Below are positions 9,379-24,279 of a stretch of 64,000 nucleotides of DNA, piece by piece. The notes below the pieces were generated by a model. That model was not told where the DNA came from and did no database searches. It saw only the letters and a list, made by a program, of their open reading frames with translations. Numbering within the stretch: the first letter of the stretch is position 1; every line of letters begins with the position of its first letter. This DNA comes from Alphaproteobacteria bacterium. GTDB taxonomy: Bacteria; Pseudomonadota; Alphaproteobacteria; CACIAM-22H2. The stretch is from positions 62,001 through 126,000 of the forward strand of contig JAFKFM010000015.1 of assembly GCA_017308135.1 (NCBI GenBank). The letters run 5' to 3'. The translations under genes were made by a program, and so were the position numbers.

Positions 9379-9494
9379 CGATTTCACGCGGCCGTCATCC
9401 TGGGCCTGTGGAAAACCTTGACCGCGAGTCTTCGGCTGATTCACACTTTGCGCGTCGATGGCCTTCCGTTTCGAGTCGCGGGGTAGCCGCGGTT
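9379..9494. other. Spacer after the ring-CoA operon; possible promoter only
   Basis: No gene is visible between the ligase stop and the hairpin leader. A TTGACC element at about 9419-9424 could be a -35 for the downstream leader and small ORF, but the matching -10 is poor (near ATTCAC). There is no clear terminator directly after the ligase. Confidence 0.3.
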
Positions 9495-9592
9495 CCGGAA
9501 GGCAAGGCGGGCGCGCCTTACGCGCCCTTCCGGTGACCAACGACAGGTGGCGCGGGAACGCCGCCGGTCGCCGCCACGAAAGGAGGTGATCC
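9495..9592 (+). promoter_or_regulatory. Structured leader with two hairpins and extended Shine-Dalgarno
   Basis: First hairpin: CCGGAA (9495-9500) pairs with TTCCGG (9528-9533) around an inner stem GGGCGCG (9509-9515) / CGCGCCC (9521-9527) with a five-base loop. Second hairpin: GTGGCG (9547-9552) pairs with CGCCAC (9572-9577). Three bases later AAAGGAGGTGATCC (9579-9592) matches the whole anti-Shine-Dalgarno tail of 16S rRNA, directly before a GTG codon. The layout is that of a translated leader or RNA regulator. No known riboswitch family was recognised. Confidence 0.5.
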
Positions 9593-9712
9593 GTGAAACA
9601 AGGATCGTTCAACGCTGGCCACACGCCGGCAAGTGCCGCTTCGGATGGGGCCAAAGCCCATGTCCGCAGCGCCATTATCTCCATAGTGGCGCGGGTGCCG
9701 GAACGCCGCTAA
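9593..9712 (+). CDS. Small ORF (39 aa) with exceptional ribosome-binding site
   Basis: GTG start with 6 bases between GGAGG and the start codon; the product begins MKQGSFNAGHTPASAASDG and ends in a basic tail VPERR. It has no signal peptide or membrane segment and matches no family I know. Codons ATA, AGT and GCA are less common in neighbouring genes. It sits between a hairpin leader and a strong terminator, so it looks like its own short transcript. It could be a leader peptide, a genuine small protein, or the translated part of a regulatory RNA. Confidence 0.5.
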   Translation: MKQGSFNAGHTPASAASDGAKAHVRSAIISIVARVPERR

Positions 9713-9743
9713 CGCGGCGCCGCACGATCGGTATTCGATCCGT

Positions 9744-9777
9744 CCCCGCCGGGTCCCGCCCGGCGGGGATATTTTTT
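9744..9777 (+). terminator. Strong rho-independent terminator
   Basis: Stem CCCCGCCGGG (9744-9753) / CCCGGCGGGG (9759-9768), 10 perfect pairs with a five-base loop, followed by ATATTTTTT. It ends transcription of the small ORF unit and insulates the crotonase gene that starts 17 bases later. Confidence 0.85.
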
Positions 9778-9793
9778 GCTAAAATCGCCCGCC

Positions 9794-10564
9794 ATGACCG
9801 ACGCCCTTCTTCTGATCGACGAACCCGCCCCGCATGTCCGCCGGCTGACGCTGAACCGGCCGGAGGCGCGCAACGCCCTGTCCTCCCCGCTTCTCGTGGC
9901 GCTCGCCGAAGCGCTGGAGGCCGCGAGCGACGACGCCAATATCCGCGCAATCGTGCTGACCGGCGGCGCCAAGGTTTTCGCGGCGGGGGCCGACATCAAG
10001 GAACTCGCCACGCGCGACACGGTGACCGGCTTGCTCGACGCGCGCACGGCGCTGTGGGGGCGCATCCGGCGCTTCGCGAAGCCGATGGTCGCGGCGATCG
10101 ACGGCTATGCGCTGGGCGGCGGTTTGGAGCTCGCCATGCACGCCGATATCGCCATCGCGGGCCCTGCGGCGCAATTCGGTCTGCCGGAGATCAATCTCGG
10201 TTTCATCCCCGGCGGCGGCGGCACGCAGCGTTTGGCGCGCATCGCCGGCCAGCAACTCGCGATGAAGCTGATCCTGACCGGCGAATTTGTCGACGCGAAA
10301 ACGGCCCTCGCCGCCGGACTCGTTGCCGAGATCGCCGAGGACGCCCAATTGCGCGCGGTCGAAATCGCGGCGAAGATCGCGCAGAAGGCGCCGCTCGCGG
10401 CGCGCCTCGCCAAGGAATTGGTGCTGGCCGCGCGCGACACGCCGCTCGAAACCGGTCTCGCCTACGAACGCAAGGCGATCGCCGCGTTGTGGGGCACGGA
10501 AGATTTCAAGGAAGGTGTCGGCGCCTTCCTCGAAAAGCGCAAAGCGAATTTCGCCGGCAAATAA
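9794..10564 (+). CDS. Enoyl-CoA hydratase/isomerase family protein with canonical glutamates
   Basis: Crotonase of 256 residues. In contrast to the gene at 4325, both catalytic Glu positions are kept (GGGLELAM and LPEINLGFIPGGGGTQ), and the oxyanion-loop region reads AAGADIKEL, so it should hydrate 2-enoyl-CoA esters in the cytoplasm. ATG at 9794 is preferred over an in-frame TTG at 9776 that lies in the terminator T-tract. It is separated from the ring-CoA operon by a terminator, so it is probably expressed apart from it, though it could supply the missing hydration step. Confidence 0.88.
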   Translation: MTDALLLIDEPAPHVRRLTLNRPEARNALSSPLLVALAEALEAASDDANIRAIVLTGGAKVFAAGADIKELATRDTVTGLLDARTALWGRIRRFAKPMVAAIDGYALGGGLELAMHADIAIAGPAAQFGLPEINLGFIPGGGGTQRLARIAGQQLAMKLILTGEFVDAKTALAAGLVAEIAEDAQLRAVEIAAKIAQKAPLAARLAKELVLAARDTPLETGLAYERKAIAALWGTEDFKEGVGAFLEKRKANFAGK

Positions 10565-22569: not shown

Positions 22570-24279
22570 TCAGAACAGGAAATAGCGCTGGGCGAGCGGC
22601 AACACGTCGGCCGGTTCGCAGACCAGCGCCTTGCCGTCGGCGCGCACTTCGTAGGTCTCGGGATCGACCTCCATTTTCGGCAGCGCGTTGTTGAGGACCA
22701 TATCCTTCTTGCCGATCTTGCGGATGCCCTTCACCGGCAGCACGGCGCGGTCGAGCTTGAGCTTCTTCGCGATGCCGTCCTTGTAGGCGGCTTGCGACAC
22801 GAAGGTGAGGCACGACGACGCCAGCGCGCGGCCGAACGCGCCGAACATCGGGCGGTAATGCACGGGCTGCGGCGTGGGGATCGAGGCGTTGGGATCGCCC
22901 ATCGGGGCCGCCGCGATCTGCCCGCATTTCAAGATCATCTCGGGCTTGGCGCCGAAAAACGCCGGCTGCCAAATCACGAGATCGGCGTATTTGCCCTTCT
23001 CGATCGAGCCGACATACTTGGCGATGCCCTGCGCCAACGCGGGATTGATCGTGTATTTCGCCACATAGCGCTTGACGCGGAAATTGTCGTTCTCGCCCTT
23101 CTCCTCCGGCAGGCGCCCGCGCTGGACCTTCATCTTATGCGCGGTCTGCCACGTGCGGGTGATCGTCTCGCCGATGCGGCCCATCGCTTGGCTGTCGGAG
23201 CTCATCATCGAGATGGCGCCCATATCGTGCAGGATATCCTCGGCCGCGATCGTCTCGCGCCTTATGCGGCTTTCGGCGAAGGCCACGTCTTCCGGAATGC
23301 GCCCATCGAGGTGATGGCACACCATCAACATGTCGAGATGCTCGTCGATCGTGTTGCGCGTGAACGGCCGCGTCGGATTGGTCGAGGACGGCAACACGTT
23401 GGGCAGGCCGCAGACCTTGACGATGTCGGGCGCGTGGCCGCCGCCCGCCCCTTCCGTGTGGAAGGAGTGGATGTTGCGGCCCTTGAACGCGGCGATCGTA
23501 TCTTCGACGAAGCCACTTTCGTTCAGCGTATCGGTGTGGATCGCGACTTGAATGTCGTATTTCTCCGCGACCGACAGGCAAACGTCGATGGCGCTGGGCG
23601 TCGTGCCCCAATCTTCGTGCAGCTTCAGCGCACATGCGCCCGCCTTGATCATCTCGACCAGCGGGGCCTGCGCCGAGGCGTTGCCCTTGCCGAAGAACCC
23701 CAAATTGATTGGCAAGCCTTCGGCGGCTTCGAGCATGCGGTGCATGTGCCACGGACCCGGCGTGCAGGTCGTGGCCGACGTGCCCGCCGCCGGTCCCGTA
23801 CCGCCGCCCATCATCGTGGTGATGCCCGAATAGAGCGCGTCGTCGACCTGCTGCGGGCAAATGAAATGGATATGCGAGTCGATGCCGCCGGCGGTAACGA
23901 TGCGCCCCTCGCCCGCGATCACTTCGGTACCGGGACCGACGATGATATCGACACCCGGCTGAACATCGGGATTACCGGCCTTGCCCAGCGCGGCGATCTT
24001 GCCGTCCTTGATGCCGATGTCGCATTTGACGATGCCCCACCAATCGAGCACCAGCGCGTTGGTGATGACGGTATCGACCGCGCCGCCCGCGCGCGTCACC
24101 TGGCTTTGGCCCATGCCGTCGCGAATGACCTTGCCGCCGCCGAATTTCACTTCCTCGCCGTAAACGGTCAGGTCCTTCTCGACCTCGATGAACAATTCGG
24201 TATCGGCCAAGCGCACGCGATCGCCCGTGGTGGGCCCGTACATGCCGGCATAGGAGGAACGGGGAATACGATAGCTCAT
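22570..24279 (-). CDS. ureC: Urease alpha subunit
   Basis: Catalytic subunit that hydrolyses urea to ammonia and carbamate in the cytoplasm. At 569 residues it is full length. All nickel-site residues are visible: H136 and H138 in [13 protein letters not shown], the carbamylated Lys in [12 protein letters not shown], His in [10 protein letters not shown] and in [15 protein letters not shown], the flap MVCHHLD catalytic His and the Asp in SSDSQAMGR. The start overlaps none of ureB and follows its stop by one base. Confidence 0.98.

Follow-up and report, generated by a model that had tools for sequence, protein, structure and literature searches.

The locus considered here raises the question of why an open reading frame of only 39 codons should be preceded by an exceptionally long Shine-Dalgarno (SD) sequence. 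The window, that is the whole 64,000-nucleotide stretch of alphaproteobacterial DNA that was analysed, had been described beforehand from its letters alone, and this preliminary description reported a match of 13 bases to the 3' end of the 16S rRNA, far more than for any other gene present. The match is real and, with G9578 included, even longer. On the forward strand, positions 9578-9592 (GAAAGGAGGTGATCC) are complementary to a congener's 16S tail along 15 nt, which we take to be nearly the entire single-stranded tail past helix 45. Because a pattern scan of the assembly did not find its own 16S gene, the tail used for this comparison (...GGATCACCTCCTTTC... / ...CTGGATCACCTCCTTTC...) is that of L271, a genome of the same genus. 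The GTG start codon at 9593 directly abuts the 14-mer core AAAGGAGGTGATCC (9579-9592), of which a scan of both strands of the 5.2-Mb assembly found a single exact copy. The other sites of the window show three mismatches to this core, in a number equal to the chance expectation, and none shows fewer. A literature search by sequence matched papers on 16S primers alone. Two trivial origins of the site were considered and rejected. As a reverse-strand fragment of a 16S gene it lacks CAGCCGCAGG, which comes next in the 16S sequence. A chance origin was discarded on the basis of its distribution: the 14-mer, without mismatch and with a start codon after it, was found once in each of 60 of 337 alphaproteobacterial genomes, and the reversed pattern used as a control in none.

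In a sample of the whole phylum, matches were present in more than half of the alphaproteobacterial genomes shown (dozens), and 13-mer matches in four genomes of other classes had mostly an irregular spacing or start. The carriers include by name Sphingomonas, Novosphingobium, Bosea, Bradyrhizobium, Methylobacterium, Azospirillum, Roseomonas and Brevundimonas. When the SD sequence alone was used as query, each non-16S match examined was located 0-1 nt upstream of a start codon. The layout is highly constant among 167 non-redundant copies: a G precedes AAAGG in 159 of them and lengthens the complementarity with 16S to 15 nt, where it ends; GATCC and the start codon are 1 nt apart in 164; and 140 have TCT as their second codon, a figure biased by the retrieval of the named loci with a TCT-containing pattern. 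No neighbouring gene is conserved across the class.

Outside the genus of the window, most copies match the Rfam family RF01867 (CC2171), and several exceed its curated cut-off. This family, named in the Rfam 15 paper, is recorded in Rfam as a Caulobacter sRNA without assigned function. The element has therefore a class-wide counterpart among the described RNA families, where the preliminary description recognised none. The window copy scores 11.1 bits (E 4.6, at 9575-9692) against a cut-off of 75, and by the Rfam criterion is thus not a member of RF01867; no Rfam family matched the window element directly at gathering score, and no RF01867 match was returned for the window's own genome. Given this low score, the kinship rests on a common layout and on the one-per-genome occurrence. 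In both RNAs the 15-nt sequence lies directly 5' of the start of a short ORF, an arm within codons 3-5 is complementary to an arm 5' of a GC-rich terminator, and there is usually one copy per genome amid variable neighbours. Thus a start codon comes 0-1 nt after GAAAGGAGGUGAUCC at 9578-9595, as in the RF01867-matching loci, and the stem closing codons 3-5 onto the pre-terminator sequence (9602-9607/9736-9741) is found in 11/11 genomes of the genus. The consensus UCUCAUUGUC that follows the start in RF01867 is replaced by GTGAAACAAGGATCG, with a second codon other than TCT, and the window copy also differs by its two additional leader hairpins. The arms of the closing stem are those of a lineage: CATTGTC/GACAATG in CC2171, GGATCG/CGATCC in the window, CATGGTTCAGC/GCTGACCATG and AATGAGATT/AATCTCAT elsewhere. 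The window RNA is best read, from these comparisons of sequence and layout, as a genus-specific and divergent version of the alphaproteobacterial CC2171 RNA.

The closing stem was evaluated over 96 distinct arms, taken as the 20 nt after the start and the 20 nt before the terminator. The duplex of an arm with its own partner reaches -13.6 kcal/mol versus -9.0 +/- 0.3 kcal/mol with permuted partners, and 0 of 10000 permutations equalled it; sequence relatedness inflates this test, the arms nonetheless varying by lineage. Stretches of at least 7 nt in the body that are complementary to the SD-start region are likewise enriched (28 versus 10.9 +/- 2.2).

Within the genus, the element was found in all 11 genomes sampled, and its region folds 4.9 sd more stably than shuffled sequences. 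From the alignment of the 11 distinct sequences, RNAalifold predicts two leader hairpins, two ORF hairpins, the closing stem and the terminator, with nearly all pairs kept in 11/11 and many of them altered on both sides. The upstream sequence varies between subclades. The two leader hairpins, the strong terminator and the 39-codon GTG frame of the preliminary description were all recovered (Table 1), hairpins and terminator with compensatory changes; the conservation of the stems in relatives, on which it had made its proposal depend, holds in 11/11, and its notion of a self-contained unit is supported. A consensus scan detected no sigma-70 promoter, and the window contains neither tRNA nor tmRNA. 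As the closing stem is invariant in the genus, the evidence for its covariation comes from the other lineages. Its 3' arm pairs by GGTA (GG(C/T)A in the genus, 9730-9733) with TGCC 9634-9637 and by CGATCC 9736-9741 with 9602-9607. In the predicted minimum-energy form, the GATCC of the SD sequence (9588-9592) is able to pair alternatively with GGATC 9602-9606; the latter can be engaged either with the SD sequence or with the closing arm, so that the two states are mutually exclusive. For the unbound RNA of the genus, the SD core is predicted to be nearly all paired (0.00-0.02 unpaired), and tight docking is therefore not assured. Exposure of the SD sequence was rejected as the cause of the conserved structure, accessibility across the class being hardly above that of shuffled bodies.

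Table 1. Position of the features of the element in the window
Feature	Position	Strand	Observation
TTGACC, -35-like	9418..9423	+	CTTGACCG unchanged in 11 genus genomes; candidate promoter, no good -10 consensus
Leader hairpin 1 (GGGCGC/GCGCCC)	9506..9531	+	8 pairs in 11/11, one compensatory
Leader hairpin 2, conserved CGGGAWCG loop	9532..9572	+	Pairs kept; compensatory 9536:9568 and 9549:9562
15-nt SD complementary to single-stranded 16S tail	9578..9592	+	Pattern scans, 16S comparison
GTG ORF, 39 codons	9593..9712	+	Frame open; peptide not conserved
Closing stem, 5' arm GGATCG, codons 4-5	9602..9607	+	Pairs with 9736-9741 in 11/11
ORF-internal hairpin, first	9614..9630	+	Compensatory changes
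ORF-internal hairpin, second	9638..9670	+	Several compensatory pairs
Closing stem, 3' arm GGTATTCGATCC	9730..9741	+	Nearly invariant in genus
Intrinsic terminator (stem 9743-9769 + T tract)	9743..9778	+	Compensatory changes; in most relatives

In the genus genomes examined, the terminator is followed within about 20-30 nt by an enoyl-CoA hydratase gene. Just 5' of the ATG of this gene, at 9777-9796, lies an extended -10-like sequence (TGCTAAAAT) that takes the form TGnTANNNT in the genus, which suggests a leaderless transcript for the hydratase. The proximity of this gene would be expected of a cis-acting leader (attenuator) controlling it, but such a role is distinctly improbable, since the association is limited to the genus and is not class-wide, the unit closes with a terminator, and the TGnTANNNT motif fits a leaderless promoter belonging to the hydratase gene itself. 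The leader-peptide sensor that had been envisaged initially is, if acting in cis, not supported either: the amino-acid sequence is unselected, no neighbour is conserved class-wide, and the hydratase gene seems to have an extended -10 of its own past the terminator.

The most immediate explanation for a strong SD sequence is an ordinary small-protein gene whose product would be the 39-aa peptide. The start codon, the frame and the 39-codon length are indeed common to 10 of the 11 genus genomes, and elsewhere the same SD sequence precedes a conserved peptide of another type (see below), but the coding content of the frame makes this explanation improbable. The ORF of the eleventh congener, L004, stops at codon 30, and the peptide has no match in Pfam or NCBIfam. 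Among short ORFs, compared in 84 independent pairs, substitutions amount to 139/179/138 by codon position for about 1025 sites each, indels disregard the frame, and the synonymous fraction (0.295 observed vs 0.269 expected) is that of neutral evolution; the ORFs of the genus are likewise devoid of any third-codon-position or synonymous excess. Five pairs of exported peptides (56-63 aa), used as a positive control, gave 24/14/51. The codon-level check proposed in the preliminary description thus indicates an amino-acid sequence free of selection, and the coding value of the 39-codon ORF is not confirmed. The frame behaves differently from the peptide. Of 90 divergent copies, 89 reach their first stop in frame 0 between codons 13 and 40 and none before codon 13, whereas in the other two frames it falls at codon 13-40 in 37/90 and 35/90 and before codon 13 in 36/90 and 32/90. 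The exclusion of ORFs of at least 50 aa drops the exported-peptide copies from this test and cannot produce the absence of early stops. What selection maintains is a frame that stays open over a limited length, not the peptide. Selection on RNA structure alone could purge early in-frame stops.

The exported peptides are encoded behind the same full SD sequence in L021-L025, L053, L073, L135, L196, L228, L243 and L256. They are 56-63 aa long, with a signal-peptide-like start, usually one cysteine and a clear coding selection, and have no match above cut-off in Pfam or NCBIfam. Their mRNAs (in g7, g2 and other lineages) have the SD sequence and the start spacing in common with the window, a comparable closing stem occurs in L025, L053, L135 and L228, and genus g7 also shows a similar start (GTGCGCAAAGGAT). 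The window ORF, in contrast, has neither the coding selection nor the signal-peptide-like N-terminus. The exported-peptide version may be ancestral to the element or one of its alternative forms.

On the basis of these observations, the locus appears, with somewhat more than even confidence, to be an independent structured-RNA gene whose transcript would be docked on the ribosome and briefly translated, and whose output would depend on the ribosome. A structured RNA of about 200-330 nt would be transcribed from its own gene, and the pairing of its SD sequence with the whole 16S tail would dock the 30S subunit very tightly. The early codons would be locked in the stem closed by the pre-terminator sequence, and part of the SD sequence could pair with the same codons. 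Docking followed by a short translation (13-40 codons) would have to open either the closing stem or the hairpin involving the SD sequence, and the ribosome would leave within the loop, typically some 46 nt 5' of the terminator. The result could be a ribosome-dependent switch or a titration in trans, affecting either the availability of 30S subunits or the exposure of the RNA to other partners. Since no neighbour is conserved class-wide, any effect should concern the pool of ribosomes or be exerted in trans; since a short translation is seemingly required while the peptide is unconserved, the best option is that the ribosome is probably the target or the intermediary of the RNA, with ribosome sensing or titration as the presumed effect. 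Candidate outputs would be titration, sensing, the selection of special ribosomes (e.g. without bS21) and the protection of an sRNA by ribosomes.

Two further explanations were considered. In the first, the RNA would be a message read selectively by some of the 30S subunits, for instance those lacking bS21. For E. coli, bS21 has been reported to interfere with extended SD pairing (PMC13009471), in Flavobacteria ribosomes without bS21 translate the rpsU message with its unusually extended SD (PMC10931766), and the SD sequence described here is about the longest possible. In both cases the pairing with the 16S tail is exceptionally long, but Flavobacterium rpsU encodes and regulates a ribosomal protein, whereas the present ORF encodes neither bS21 nor another conserved protein, and this explanation is unlikely. 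In the second, the RNA would be a sponge for sRNAs carrying an anti-SD motif, of the CCUCCUCCC or SisA type. The class has such anti-SD sRNAs, and for SisA a sponge is known (PMC12559287; PMC3927594), but the conserved 15-nt match, with its GATCC and its leading G, corresponds to the 16S tail and does not fit CCUCCUCCC, and an open reading frame would be needless; this function is highly improbable.

The RNA gene proposed here, with its predicted short translated ORF, is reminiscent of the dual-function small RNAs Spot 42 and rnTrpL, with the difference that their peptides are functional in themselves while the peptide sequence encoded here is unconstrained. With respect to expression, CC2171 relatives are reported from Caulobacter, as the sRNA that gave its name to the Rfam family, and from Mesorhizobium, where one candidate of an sRNA list is annotated RF01867 CC2171 (PMC5596092). 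A Caulobacter profiling study describes two earlier-predicted ncRNAs as actually translated (PMC4117421). No discussion of the function of CC2171 was found in the literature searched. A more general principle is proposed only tentatively: there may be RNAs that need to be translated but for which the peptide is irrelevant, the full pairing with the 16S tail serving to capture or gauge ribosomes and the length of a dummy ORF, not its sequence, being selected. Hitherto listed without a function, CC2171 is an Rfam sRNA widespread in Alphaproteobacteria, and its hallmark according to the present data is a perfect match to the whole 16S tail combined with an open frame in which the peptide drifts. 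Should this be verified experimentally, it would offer a natural probe for ribosomes that are free or specialised, and selection for being translated would be separable from selection for the product.

Other Rfam matches were also recorded in the window. The 3' part of the element, with its terminator, is weakly matched by Rhizobiales-2 (26 bits, 9671-9769), BcKCsr2 and anti-hemB. The Rhizobiales-2 consensus contains a mimic of the 16S tail (AUCACCUCC) and could therefore in principle pair with SD sequences of the CC2171 type. Farther downstream, at 23838-24127 on the forward strand, RF02514 (5' ureB antisense sRNA) is matched with 94 bits; this match is antisense to the urease alpha-subunit gene (22570-24279, reverse strand) and probably reflects coding conservation.
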